DNA from: Lactobacillus johnsonii ATCC 33200
GTDB taxonomy: Bacteria > Bacillota > Bacilli > Lactobacillales > Lactobacillaceae
Length of the DNA: 64,000 nt
Assembly: GCF_000159355.1 (NCBI RefSeq)
Contig: NZ_GG670121.1
Span: 270,358 to 334,357, forward strand
Direction: 5' to 3'
Part shown: piece after piece, positions 10,894-16,604 of the stretch
Layout of the letters: each line of letters starts with the position of its first letter
How positions within the stretch are numbered: position 1 is the first letter of the stretch
The notes under the pieces: generated by a model
Database searches by the model: none
What the model was told of the DNA's origin: nothing
What the model saw: only the letters and a program-made list of their open reading frames with translations
Position numbers and translations under genes: made by a program

Positions 10894-11151
10894 ATGGCAA
10901 AAAAATCCAAAATCGTTAAGGCTGCTAAGCAGCGTGAATTAATCAAGAAATACTATGAATTAAAAGAAGCTGGTGACGTAGAAGCATTAGCAAAATTACC
11001 GCTTGATGCTCACCCAACTCACTACCATAACCGTGATTTACATGATGGTAGACCACATGGTTATATGCGTAAGTTTGGTATATCACGTTTACGCTTTAAA
11101 GAATTAGCACACAAGGGACAACTTCCTGGTGTGCGTAAAGCTAGTTGGTAA
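10894..11151 (+). CDS. rpsN: 30S ribosomal protein S14, zinc-independent paralogue
   Basis: An 85-residue protein ending in the S14 signature ([26 protein letters not shown]). It lacks the CXXC...CXXC zinc ribbon of the S14 usually encoded in the spc operon of Firmicutes, so it is the C-minus form that can replace zinc-bearing S14 when zinc is scarce. It stands alone with its own strong promoter and terminator, away from ribosomal operons, as such paralogues usually do. GAAAGGAAA precedes the ATG. Whether a second, zinc-binding rpsN exists cannot be seen here. Confidence 0.95.
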
Positions 11152-11266: not shown

Positions 11267-11275
11267 TGATATAAT
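11267..11275 (+). promoter_or_regulatory. Extended -10 promoter of the split membrane-peptide gene
   Basis: TGATATAAT is a TGnTATAAT extended -10 box; the -35 region is poor. The predicted transcript begins near 11282 and would open with a stem formed by 11285-11293 and 11303-11311, then the GGAGGTGG site at 11360-11367. Confidence 0.55.
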
Positions 11276-11440
11276 TTTTATTAGGCTTTTATAGATAGCT
11301 AATATAAGAGCTTAGTAACTTTTCATGGCTCTACACCCCTCACATATATTTTAGGTTACGGAGGTGGAAGTCATGATAATTTGGATAGGCTAGAGTGTTG
11401 GTCTGCCTTGATAATAGCTGCTATTGCTATCGGCATTGTC

Positions 11441-11640
11441 GTCAACTACCCCAGAATGAATTCTGGGCTTGGTGGTTCGTTAGCTTGCGCTAACTATTTC
11501 ACCAATTTGCTTAGATACAGGCTTAACTTGCTTGAATTGCGAAAATCCAAACAGCGGTTTTCCCAATTACCAAAGCCTTTTGAGTCCGCAAGTTGCCAAA
11601 CGGACTGCAGTCTATTTAGATTGCTTTTTTTATTTTAGGA
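11441..11640 (-). ncRNA. Presumptive omega-RNA of TnpB (scaffold region; 5' limit uncertain)
   Basis: In this family the guide RNA is made from the 3' end of tnpB through the right end of the element. On the minus strand this region holds the stem GTTAGC/GCTAAC (11494-11479), an eight-bp stem CCCAGAAT/ATTCTGGG (11467-11450) and the terminal GTAGTTGAC. The guide would be the flanking chromosome just beyond, 11440 down to about 11421. Structure and position support this; the processing ends are guesses. Confidence 0.6.
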
Positions 11641-12950
11641 TTTTTCCAAATACCTTTGCTTTTTTCTAAGATGTTTACAGAAGCATTCCAATCTCTTATG
11701 TGATAACTTCCGCATACTGGGCAAGTCCATTTCCGATCCTTAAGCGTAAGTTTCTTATAGCCGTTTTGTCCCATTATGTTTCCGCAATTATGACACCTTT
11801 GCGTAGTAAATTTTGGGTCAATCGTGACAAACTTTTTGCCATGAAGATCAGCTTTATATTCGAGCATGGTTAAGAAACTCCGCCATCCTGCATCAGAAAT
11901 AGATTGGGCAAGAACATGATTCTTTAACAGATTTTTACTTCTTAGTTCTTCGGCTACTACTAAATCGTGGTTTTTGATTAATGCAGTAGAAAGAACGTGC
12001 AAAAAGTCTTGTCTCTGTCTGCGAATCCTGTCGTGCAGTTTAGCGACGGCTAGGCGCTGTTTTTGATAGTTCTTGGATTCACACAAAGAGCGTCCTTCTT
12101 TTTTGGCTCTGCGTTCTCTACGTGAAAGTATTCTTTGAGCGTGGGCGAGCTTTTTCTTGGCTCTGCAATAAAACCTTGGATTAGCTACCATTGCACCGTT
12201 AGAATCCGTCAAGAAATTATCCAAGTTAAGATCAATGCCGATCTGCTTTTGTGTTTTAGCATAGTCTTTGACAAAGGCAATATCACTTCCCAGCTGTAAA
12301 GAAAGATAAAACTGATCGTCTGCCGTTTTCTTAATTGAAGCAGTGCCGATTCGAGTAGGAATACGGTCAAGCAGGCGCTTTTTAATCAGCTTGCGCAATC
12401 CTACAATTCTCACTGTTCCTAGTTTAGGAAGCTTAACATGCTTAGCGTCAATAAATCTAACCGTGCCATTATCAAGATAGGCTTCGTCTTGCTTTATGTA
12501 CTGACAGTTAGTCTGATATGACCAGTTGTTTCGTTTCTTGTGAAAGGTTGGTATTCCATAGCCAATTTTATGATAGTTTCTCCATGCTTTGTGATAATTT
12601 TGAATTGCATTGGCGATAGCCAAGCTATCAATGTCTTCAACACGCAAGAAATCATACTTATCTCTAATATTTTTAGGTTTAGAAATTAAGTCTTGCGTAT
12701 CAATCATTCTTAATGCTTGTTGATTTTCATATTCAGACATTCCCTGCATTACAAAGGGCAAACCGCTGCTAAGCTGTTTGATCCTATTGGCCTTTTTAAC
12801 GTGATAGATCAAACGGCCAGCGCCAACGTATTGGTTATAAACAAAACGCTGTGCGTCATAATTCTGCTTAATCATTTTCTTTTGATTATTGCTAGGATAG
12901 AACCTTACTTTTACGCCAAAGTGATATTCAAAACTGCTCATTCTTTTCAT
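11616..12950 (-). CDS. tnpB: TnpB, IS605-family RNA-guided nuclease
   Basis: A 444-residue protein with all parts of an active TnpB. The N-terminal helical/wedge region is followed by a split RuvC nuclease with Asp240 (IGIDLNLDN), Glu334 (VVAEELRSKN) and Asp420 (HIRDWNAS), and a zinc ribbon with Cys386, Cys389, Cys410 and Cys413. TnpB proteins use an omega-RNA from the element's right end to cut DNA next to a TAM, which preserves the element at vacated donor sites. No stop, frameshift or missing catalytic residue is seen. It is transcribed away from tnpA; the 98-base gap to tnpA should hold both promoters. Confidence 0.95.
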   Translation of the reverse strand: MKRMSSFEYHFGVKVRFYPSNNQKKMIKQNYDAQRFVYNQYVGAGRLIYHVKKANRIKQLSSGLPFVMQGMSEYENQQALRMIDTQDLISKPKNIRDKYDFLRVEDIDSLAIANAIQNYHKAWRNYHKIGYGIPTFHKKRNNWSYQTNCQYIKQDEAYLDNGTVRFIDAKHVKLPKLGTVRIVGLRKLIKKRLLDRIPTRIGTASIKKTADDQFYLSLQLGSDIAFVKDYAKTQKQIGIDLNLDNFLTDSNGAMVANPRFYCRAKKKLAHAQRILSRRERRAKKEGRSLCESKNYQKQRLAVAKLHDRIRRQRQDFLHVLSTALIKNHDLVVAEELRSKNLLKNHVLAQSISDAGWRSFLTMLEYKADLHGKKFVTIDPKFTTQRCHNCGNIMGQNGYKKLTLKDRKWTCPVCGSYHIRDWNASVNILEKSKGIWKNPKIKKAI

Positions 12951-13048
12951 TTTTTCACTCCCTTTATTGATATGATTTAATCATAGACTATGTAGATATT
13001 ATGATCAATAGTAAACGCTTATAAACAAAGAGGATAACAGTATTTCCT

Positions 13049-13513
13049 ATGATAAAAAAGAAAGACAAAATAAAAGACGCAGGCTATGAAAAGCACTACG
13101 TCTACAATACTCATTATCATTTGATTTGGTGTACCAAATACCGCAATCAGATTTTTACAAATACCAATTTAGCCGAAGAAATGCGAAAGCTTTTATTGCA
13201 GATTGCCGAGGATAATCAAATTAAGATAGAAAAAATGGAGATCATGCCCGAACATGTTCACTTATTGGTTAGCTTTAAGCCTTCTAAATCTGGTTCTAGT
13301 GTAATCAAGGCTCTAAAAGGCAGAAGTGGCAGGTTGTTTTTGCAGGCACATCCTGAAATTAGGCAAAACAAGATGTGGGGCGGACATCTATGGTCGCCAA
13401 GCTATTATTTTGGCAGTGTAGGCAATATGTCAAAAGAAGTGGTAGAGAAATACATCAACGATCAAGTCTATAACGCAATCAAAGACGGTAAGCACTATCC
13501 ATCCCCGCATTAA
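13049..13513 (+). CDS. tnpA: TnpA, IS200-type Y1 HUH transposase
   Basis: A 154-residue single-strand transposase of standard length. The HUH metal motif is PEHVHLLV (His69 and His71) and the nucleophile is probably Tyr135 in VVEKYIND. It cuts and rejoins the single-stranded ends of the element at the subterminal hairpins. AGAGGA lies upstream of the ATG with long spacing. Its stop codon lies inside the left-end hairpin. It looks intact, so the element may still move. Confidence 0.95.
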   Translation: MIKKKDKIKDAGYEKHYVYNTHYHLIWCTKYRNQIFTNTNLAEEMRKLLLQIAEDNQIKIEKMEIMPEHVHLLVSFKPSKSGSSVIKALKGRSGRLFLQAHPEIRQNKMWGGHLWSPSYYFGSVGNMSKEVVEKYINDQVYNAIKDGKHYPSPH

Positions 13514-13593
13514 AATACGGGGATTTACGGGCGAATCTCATTAAACGCATTGGGTATTTTCCTAATCCGTGCAGCAATTGCTTATGCAATAAC

Positions 13594-13683
13594 AAAAAAG
13601 GCTAATCACAAGGATTAGCCACACAATCAGTCATCTTAAGTTACGATTGAAGGTAGAGAGTGCGAGTCTCTATCTCCTTTTCT
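13594..13683 (-). ncRNA. Putative antisense RNA overlapping the 3' end of the split peptide gene
   Basis: On the minus strand a TATAAT box lies at 13695-13690. About seven bases later would begin an RNA of roughly 90 bases whose 5' part folds into the stem 13674-13667/13659-13652. It ends in a canonical terminator: stem 13620-13613/13607-13600 followed by six U (13599-13594). It is complementary to the last codons and 3' tail of the peptide mRNA. Convergent units sharing their 3' ends are typical of type I toxin-antitoxin loci such as txpA/ratA or par. Not tested; the -35 box is weak. Confidence 0.5.
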
Positions 13684-13689
13684 TTTACA
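13652..13689 (+). terminator. Plus-strand terminator of the split peptide gene
   Basis: The stem GGTAGAGA/TCTCTATC (13652-13659 with 13667-13674, one G-T pair), a seven-base loop and a pyrimidine tail rich in T form the end of the peptide mRNA. Confidence 0.65.
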
Positions 13690-13695
13690 ATTATA
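13690..13695 (-). promoter_or_regulatory. -10 box of the putative antisense RNA
   Basis: TATAAT on the minus strand just outside the plus-strand terminator. The region 17 bases upstream (ATGATA) is a poor -35, so strength is uncertain. Confidence 0.4.
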
Positions 13696-13730: not shown

Positions 13731-14123
13731 TTAGCTTTGTCTGGTAAATTCAATATTTTTGAGGATACCGAAAATATCACCAGCAATTGATTTTACTTTA
13801 AATGATTTTCGATCATCAGCTAACTTAGCACGCATAATTACTTCATCATCTTCATTTTTTATTTTTAAATCATTACCGGACAATTCATAAGTATCATTTT
13901 CTGATGTCGTACCATTTGTCATCTTTACTTTTTTATCATTAGAAAATTCTAGTTTTGTTTTTGATGTCACACCTAAAAATGTTGCTTGGTTAGTATAAGT
14001 TCCAGCTAAATGATGAGATCTATAATTACTCCATCCAATTAAGGAGATAATTGCTACCAGAACTATTACCGCAACTACAATCCAGTTTGCTTTGTTTTTC
14101 TTTGATTTTTCGTAGTTATGCAT
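13731..14123 (-). CDS. Unknown small membrane-anchored protein
   Basis: A 130-residue protein with a basic N-terminus, one transmembrane helix at about residues 15-31 (VVAVIVLVAIISLIGW) and an outward-facing beta-rich domain (GTYTNQATFLG, KLEFSNDKKVKM, TYELSGNDLKIK). Such short beta domains resemble lipocalin-like modules in Lactobacillus envelope proteins, but I do not assign a family. It follows the lipoprotein gene by 15 bases, so the two are probably co-transcribed and may work together. Confidence 0.7.
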   Translation of the reverse strand: MHNYEKSKKNKANWIVVAVIVLVAIISLIGWSNYRSHHLAGTYTNQATFLGVTSKTKLEFSNDKKVKMTNGTTSENDTYELSGNDLKIKNEDDEVIMRAKLADDRKSFKVKSIAGDIFGILKNIEFTRQS

Positions 14124-14138
14124 TAATTGACCTCTTTA

Positions 14139-14846
14139 TTACTCTTTCTCAAAAACCATGATTGTACTCATTCCGCTTTTCCAAAATACAATTAAGTTCT
14201 TTGAAGATGGAGCTTGTTTTTCACCATTAATTACAAAATCAGTAGAACCTGCTGGATAGAATGAAACAGACCAGTTAATTTGAGCATCATGTAATGAACC
14301 AGTTAAACTATTCTGCGTTTTTTGGAAGGTTAAGGGATGTAGATCGTCGTTATAACTTACTCCATCTTTATTAACAACTACTTTATCGCCGCCCACCATT
14401 TGGATTGTATTTGGAGTTACAACCAAGGTAATTGGATTTTCAGTATTCGCCTTGTCTTCTCCACCATCTCGAACAACAATTTTTGTGGATTTCCAGGTTC
14501 CAGCTAAGCTGCTATAGTTTCCTTGCTCAATCTGATCAAAGTTCATCTTGTTATCACTGTTATTGCTTTTAGCAGTGTTTTTTGTTTCTTTTTCAGCTTT
14601 AGTATTGGATTGCTTTATACTAGAGCTACTTTCACTCTTATTAGCCGAACTAGAGCTAGAAGATTGTTCACTGTCCATTTCTTCTGCGCTATTTTTAGAC
14701 TCGCCGCTTTGGTTCGAGCTCTTTTTAGTAGAAACTACTGAACTTTTCTTACTATCATGGTTTCCACTACTCGTATTTTGATTACTACAGCCTGCTAATA
14801 AAAGTGTTGACAATATTGCTGCTGTAATTAATACTTTCTTTTTCAT
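14139..14846 (-). CDS. Serine/lysine-rich surface lipoprotein of unknown function
   Basis: A 235-residue protein with a classical lipobox (LLLAGC, Cys at 20), a low-complexity linker rich in Ser, Lys and Asn to about residue 105, and a C-terminal globular domain (SLAGTWKSTKIVVRDGG through FVINGEKQAP) with beta-strand character. The tail FWKSGMSTIMVFEKE resembles domains found in Lactobacillus lipoproteins of unknown role. It is the first gene of a two-gene unit with the anchored protein downstream. Likely exported, lipid-anchored and reaching through the wall by the linker. Confidence 0.75.
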   Translation of the reverse strand: MKKKVLITAAILSTLLLAGCSNQNTSSGNHDSKKSSVVSTKKSSNQSGESKNSAEEMDSEQSSSSSSANKSESSSSIKQSNTKAEKETKNTAKSNNSDNKMNFDQIEQGNYSSLAGTWKSTKIVVRDGGEDKANTENPITLVVTPNTIQMVGGDKVVVNKDGVSYNDDLHPLTFQKTQNSLTGSLHDAQINWSVSFYPAGSTDFVINGEKQAPSSKNLIVFWKSGMSTIMVFEKE

Positions 14847-16602: not shown

Positions 16603-16604
16603 TA

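Follow-up and report, generated by a model that had tools for sequence, protein, structure and literature searches.

We have identified a locus in a 64,000-nucleotide stretch of Lactobacillus johnsonii ATCC 33200 (assembly GCF_000159355.1, contig NZ_GG670121.1, positions 270,358 to 334,357; the whole stretch is called the window) that in all likelihood belongs to a type I toxin-antitoxin-like family, consisting of a small peptide and a predicted antisense RNA, and whose copy in the window is split by an element of the IS200/IS605 family. An earlier note on this DNA had proposed a type I toxin-antitoxin-like locus cut by an IS605-family element, and this is still the best reading, considering the empty sites in relatives and the selection on the peptide frame. 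The compared sequences support the conservation of the frame, the promoter and terminator patterns, covarying helices, the co-change of the repeats, carriage on plasmids and the insertion itself. The features of the locus are given in Table 1.

Table 1. Features of the split locus and of the inserted element (positions in the window).
Feature	Positions	Strand	Basis
Extended -10 of the predicted toxin-mRNA promoter, TGnTATAAT	11267..11275	+	TG 11267-11268, TATAAT 11270-11275, direct reading
Anti-repeat GTAACTT in the leader, complementary to the downstream direct repeat	11315..11321	+	Helix 1: 7 pairs, 3 two-sided, 91.9% of cells paired
Predicted stem-loop with the direct repeat in its loop, occluding GGAGGTG (ribosome-binding site, 11360-11366) and the ATG of the leader (11373-11375)	11324..11375	+	Helices 2 and 3: 6/12 pairs two-sided
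Direct repeat, 5' copy, AGGTTACG, predicted target of the antisense RNA	11353..11360	+	Cognate pairing stronger than non-cognate in relatives
Leader frame behind the strong ribosome-binding site, stop after 6 codons	11373..11393	+	Direct reading
Toxin-like gene, 5' part: probable TTG start and 10 codons	11408..11440	+	Start place conserved in 34/37; alignment A1
IS200/IS605-family element	11441..13540	undefined	Right end 11441, left end 13540; clean junctions against L020, L021 and L022; end hairpins
tnpB, 444 amino acids	11616..12950	-	OrfB_IS605 PF01385 and Cas12f1-like TNB PF07282, both above cut-off
tnpA, Y1 transposase, 154 amino acids	13049..13513	+	Y1_Tnp PF01797, E 2.3e-41
Toxin-like gene, 3' part: 25 codons and TAG (13616-13618)	13541..13618	+	Empty-site junction and direct reading
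Predicted antisense terminator that overlaps the final codons of the toxin: hairpin 13620-13600, T run 13599-13594	13594..13620	-	Helix 4: 98.8% of cells paired
Predicted antisense antitoxin RNA, about 90 nucleotides	13594..13683	-	Model R1 of the 3' module, 113.9 bits; fold
Direct repeat, 3' copy, TTAAGTTACG, complement carried by the antisense RNA	13636..13645	+	Direct reading; duplex test
Hairpin and T tract: predicted toxin mRNA terminator and 5' hairpin of the antisense RNA	13649..13686	+	Helix 5: 9/11 pairs two-sided, 98.4% paired
-10 TATAAT of the predicted antisense promoter	13690..13695	-	Direct reading; offset conserved in relatives

Three loci, L020, L021 and L022, represent the same place without the element. 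Over about 1.64 kilobases (from about 9810 to the junction), their left flanks are 97.6%, 98.2% and 98.6% identical to the window, and the match resumes at 13541 with 93.6%, 94.2% and 94.2% identity, respectively. These junctions fit the bounds 11441-13540 that had been proposed for the insertion, and the comparison showed no target duplication. L020 is colinear with the window up to 14854. For L021 and L022, the match breaks off at 13747 and continues at 16604, and the right side is therefore rearranged in both. In the toxin-like gene, the insertion falls after codon 11 and leaves the remaining 25 codons on the far side of the element, and the antisense gene stays whole. With the halves read apart and not joined, the frame is open from TTG 11381 to 11440 and from 13541 to the TAG, in agreement with the 20 and 25 codons previously counted. 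At the empty site, the hydrophobic frame is open in L020 and L022 and frameshifted in L021; a conserved frame in empty-site relatives, on which the earlier note had staked its claim, was thus found in two of three, together with purifying selection across the family. The same genome also contains a paralogue without the insertion (L003 2505-2835), which shows 76% identity in the right flank and 74% in the left, and in which an A run is shorter and the peptide tail is changed.

Purifying selection acts on the hydrophobic frame only, and it does so across the family. Among 39 long copies that were aligned, a script found an intact hydrophobic frame in 37. In the 22 copies used for the selection analysis, the ratio of nonsynonymous to synonymous polymorphism (pN/pS) was 0.39 in this frame, whereas the two alternative frames gave 1.28 and 1.31, and codon third positions were the most variable in the hydrophobic frame; column permutations gave 0.84 +- 0.14, none of 200 being as low as 0.39. 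The 22 peptides of alignment A1 have the consensus MIAxAIAISIxLNALGxFAIRLAIAYAITKKANHKD, and each contains one hydrophobic segment, with a best 19-residue mean of 1.70-2.94. The tails of the 39 copies are of the type KK[AT]N[HR][KR][DG] in 31, KKLI[TA]RIS in three and KKS in two, and none was found in three. A homopolymeric A run (13594-13599 in the window) encodes the KK of the tail and doubles as the T run of the antisense terminator, and its length varies among copies, altering the tail, as slippage would.

The peptide is 36-37 residues long and mostly starts from a non-ATG codon (GTG or TTG). An ATG, GTG or TTG lies 22-27 codons ahead of the conserved A[YKN] motif in 34 of the 37 intact copies, while a start 33 codons ahead, at the place of TTG 11381, occurs in five (L020, L022 and three others, one of them with ATG). 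Because of this difference, TTG 11408 is the likelier start in the window, giving a product of 11 + 25 = 36 residues. Accordingly, the 45-residue peptide from TTG 11381 that had been suggested earlier is less likely; such a form is possible in some copies, and it does not appear to be the rule of the family.

On the opposite strand, the predicted antisense RNA was recognised with R1, a covariance model of the 3' (antisense) module whose alignment A3 lacks the window copy and includes its close relatives. The minus-strand TATAAT at 13695-13690 and terminator at 13620-13594, like the extended -10 at 11267, had been noted before and are present on direct reading. Candidate antisense promoters were scored in 31 of the 39 copies (8 were not scored); at least 9 of 12 positions matched in 30 of the 31, with 5.7 expected from shuffles, and the best -10 box lay at a single offset in 26 of the 31. 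The two terminators are separate, their T runs lying beside two different hairpins. The shared terminator of the first description is thereby replaced by an antisense terminator in the last toxin codons and a plus-strand terminator behind the gene, at 13649-13686.

The RNA structure is conserved as well. Five helices, comprising the pairing of anti-repeat and repeat, two helices over the ribosome-binding site and the start codon of the leader, the antisense terminator and the hairpin at the mRNA end and antisense start, contain 37 pairs, of which 95.4% of cells are paired in 23 aligned copies. Changes on both sides occurred at 20 pairs, compared with 8.0 +- 1.7 in shuffles. In addition, the 3' module contains a second copy of the repeat that lies ahead of the ribosome-binding site; therefore, the antisense RNA could bind both. 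The predicted duplex between the leader repeat and the antisense RNA had a mean energy of -16.27 kcal/mol for cognate partners, -12.52 for non-cognate partners and -10.41 (standard deviation 2.50) for letter-shuffled RNA, and with 19 distinct repeat pairs none of 20000 permutations reached the cognate mean.

The predicted toxin mRNA starts at about 11282 and would be about 300 nucleotides long (290-328 in the 25 of 39 copies in which both ends could be placed); by eye only, -10-like boxes stand at the same place in other copies. Between the ribosome-binding site and the toxin frame lies a leader frame, which extends over 12 codons in L020-L022, where the early stop of the window is absent. The pN/pS of the leader frame was 0.61, against 0.93 +- 0.30 in permutations, 32 of 300 being as low. 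Translation of the toxin is possibly coupled to this frame, as in mok/hok. The peptide of L135 and L136 stands immediately behind the ribosome-binding site, and L102 has a single frame for leader and toxin. A programmed frameshift from the leader into the toxin frame was set aside: the relation is +1 in some copies and +2 in others, and the two frames coincide in L102.

From these features, the following mechanism may be proposed. An intact copy would give a plus-strand mRNA of the above length on which a short leader frame, served by a strong ribosome-binding site, precedes a membrane-spanning peptide, mostly ending in KKANHKD. The leader stem-loop would sequester both the ribosome-binding site and the ATG of the leader frame, leaving the direct repeat exposed in its loop. 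Transcribed on the minus strand from a promoter of its own behind the mRNA terminator, an RNA of about 90 nucleotides would end within the last toxin codons; it would carry the repeat complement and often a CUCC stretch, and could therefore pair with the mRNA both at the 3' ends and in the leader. Such pairing would cover the repeat and the ribosome-binding site, and translation would be blocked. Once the DNA, for example a plasmid, is lost, decay of the short RNA would allow synthesis of the peptide and with it damage to the membrane. That the RNAs are transcribed, that the antisense RNA represses, that the peptide is toxic and acts on the membrane, and that the module stabilises plasmids is inferred from the sequences.

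Several observations weigh against this reading. In 34 of 75 genomes of the genus there is no match, and the system is therefore dispensable; two of the 39 copies lack an intact hydrophobic frame. Leaders were found in 35 of the 39 copies, and six of the 35 are out of register. The frame served by the strong ribosome-binding site is that of the leader, and it stands in no fixed relation to the toxin frame. When the leaders of four relatives were folded, one was clearly more stable than its shuffles (z-score -2.14), the others having -0.52 to -1.17, so that folding energies by themselves weigh less than the covarying helices. The structure used for counting pairs had one of the aligned sequences as its template and is therefore favoured over the slid controls, which gave 3-6 two-sided pairs. 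Also, the permutation tests ignore the relatedness of the copies.

The putative toxin family is likely new, with no detected relation to Fst, as far as the sequence searches reach. The suggestion of the earlier note that it may be a new family is in line with these searches: with the peptides as queries, PADLOC and PDB gave no match, Pfam gave nothing convincing (best E-value (E) 0.14), the best NCBIfam match was an excisionase far below its cut-off (E 0.1), and the best PHROGs match had no assigned function (E 0.01, for 2 of 22 members). Rfam had no match in the window at gathering scores; for the paralogue, it returned only five matches with E 2.6-8, all below gathering scores. A literature search by title and the start of the abstract found nothing on the peptide family, with partial coverage, so that an earlier description is possible.

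A diverged par (fst/RNA II) locus encoding an Fst peptide that is hard to recognise is an unlikely explanation, even though much of the par layout fits. According to the accessible text of PMC7472228, par combines convergent promoters, oppositely read direct repeats and a ribosome-binding site masked by a stem-loop with a charged tail and carriage on plasmids. Both par of pAD1 (fst/RNA II) and Lpt/RNAII of Lacticaseibacillus plasmids share with our locus the convergent RNAs, the leader and antisense repeats, the hidden ribosome-binding site, a membrane peptide of about 30 residues with a charged tail and plasmid carriage, to the extent that the available parts of the sources describe them (PMC7472228, PMC5608710, PMC8003834). 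The P/D/S/TxxxG motif, placed by the accessible text of PMC7472228 in the membrane segment of 'the majority' of Fst/Ldr toxins, is present in 7 of the 22 A1 peptides, in the form SxxxG; however, it is absent from the other 15.

The searches also argue against an Fst peptide. Neither PF13955 nor NF033608 (Fst) matched among the scanned peptides (5 whole; 7 peptides or pieces), whereas a real Fst was found beside a copy of the system on an L. johnsonii plasmid (L062 4523-4780) that also carries cas9. This Fst scored 33 bits with NF033608 (cut-off 26) and 28.2 bits with PF13955, below the cut-off of 36. An hhalign comparison of the peptide profile with it gave a probability of 0.2 and one aligned column, the template being a weak, single-sequence one. 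Moreover, par has one bidirectional terminator, whereas here two separate terminators are present, the antisense one inside the last toxin codons, and in its own genus a leader frame is interposed ahead of a toxin that mostly starts with GTG or TTG. We consider, from the sequence comparison, that the system would work like par and shares most of its RNA logic, and do not file it as par.

In txpA/ratA of Bacillus subtilis, the antisense RNA overlaps the 3' end of the toxin mRNA. An antisense RNA over the toxin mRNA 3' end and a hidden ribosome-binding site are likewise shared with bsrG/SR4 of the same species, as presented in the accessible part of PMC8309996. Unlike in these two systems, the antisense RNA here also has a repeat matching the mRNA leader, and no convincing Pfam match to the peptides was obtained. 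With hok/mok/Sok, the locus shares antisense control at the ribosome-binding site of a leader frame ahead of the toxin, according to the same part of PMC8309996; however, the present system is Gram-positive with a convergent 3' antisense RNA, and leader coupling is only a possibility here.

The family is spread widely over lactobacilli. Matches at E <= 1e-3 were found in 41 of 75 genomes of the genus, with up to six in each, some covering only about 30 bases. Plasmid carriage was found in 14 of 72,556 plasmid records, all from Lactobacillus (gasseri, johnsonii, taiwanensis, crispatus, amylovorus and intestinalis), and again in 14 records with the orthologue as the query; an incomplete gene table shows no annotation at these 14 places. 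Phage records and viral contigs contained no relative. With model R1, the 3' module was found in 39 of 75 genomes of the genus and, at E <= 1e-3, in 63 of 301 family genomes from 20 of 40 genera, of which the weakest may be chance. At E <= 1e-5, the counts were 52 of 301 family genomes from 15 genera and 3 of 398 class genomes, all three from the own genus. The depth of these searches differed, with 50 candidates scored for each genus genome, 12 for each family genome and 9 for each class genome. Relatives found by R1 include Ligilactobacillus, Limosilactobacillus and Secundilactobacillus (20 loci). A motif script was applied to 40 further loci: outside the genus, a hydrophobic frame whose tail is of the KK[AT]N type was present in L096, L099, L102, L103, L104, L126, L135, L136 and L139 and partially in L134, and other loci failed the filter of the script or had no such frame. 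Tandem arrays were observed in L044, with three full copies and a toxin-less module, and in L126, where some four copies are complete or almost so and one remnant is present.

Antisense modules are also found alone. Nine of the 50 modules examined have no intact toxin frame: L025 358-469, L032, L035, L040, L041, L043, L052, L054 and L059. Seven of the nine retain a -10-like box by a loose pattern, and L035 retains a remnant frame. By pattern, 13 of the 50 modules lack the 5' element, including four not counted as toxin-less: L013, L027 and L031, which retain the toxin frame, and L065, which is the window. A pattern match at L047:3994 had been dropped as unrelated before the 50 were counted. 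L032 and L054 are apparently the same element in two genomes. The window copy, with its broken toxin frame and whole antisense gene, resembles the nine toxin-less modules. It is conceivable, and we put it forward only tentatively, that a type I family with a new toxin and leader-dependent translation extends across the Lactobacillaceae, and that its antisense half is often kept alone once the toxin is lost, among other ways by a transposon insertion like that in the window, and serves as an RNA shield against incoming plasmids that bear the complete system.

This distribution bears on two other explanations. On the one hand, the membrane peptide could be a regulator or signal under antisense control, considering that hydrophobic peptides with antisense RNAs need not kill. 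This is improbable, since carriage on 14 plasmids, tandem copies in L044 and L126 and toxin-less modules in 9 of 50 cases are as expected of a toxin, and so are mostly non-ATG starts and a hidden ribosome-binding site. On the other hand, several copies per genome and the tandem arrangement could point to a dispersed repeat of the BOX or REP kind, conserved through copying and not through function; however, frame-specific selection, compensatory pairs, co-change of the repeats and promoter conservation make this hardly credible.

If the locus is indeed a type I toxin-antitoxin system, many lactobacilli would carry an RNA-regulated addiction module missed by annotation, with consequences for how stably plasmids are kept in L. 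gasseri, L. johnsonii, L. crispatus and L. amylovorus. It would add a toxin family under par-like RNA logic without a detected relation to Fst, and the natural toxin-less modules would let one ask whether type I antitoxins protect against plasmids with the full system.

The inserted element itself resembles other IS200/IS605 elements in having tnpA and tnpB, end hairpins and no target duplication, and no unusual difference was seen. TTTAA precedes its left end (13540) on the minus strand, and a search of the genome with both ends found no second copy of either. It lies between a gene at 10894-11151, which from its sequence we take to be ribosomal-protein-S14-like, and a small gene of unknown function. 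Given the established biology of TnpB, the guide belonging to this element (flank 11426-11440, beside the right end) would match the empty toxin site next to TTTAA, and TnpB could then cut alleles without the element. Near the locus, the window encodes at 14139-14846 a lipoprotein-like serine-rich protein with a DUF6287 match above cut-off.

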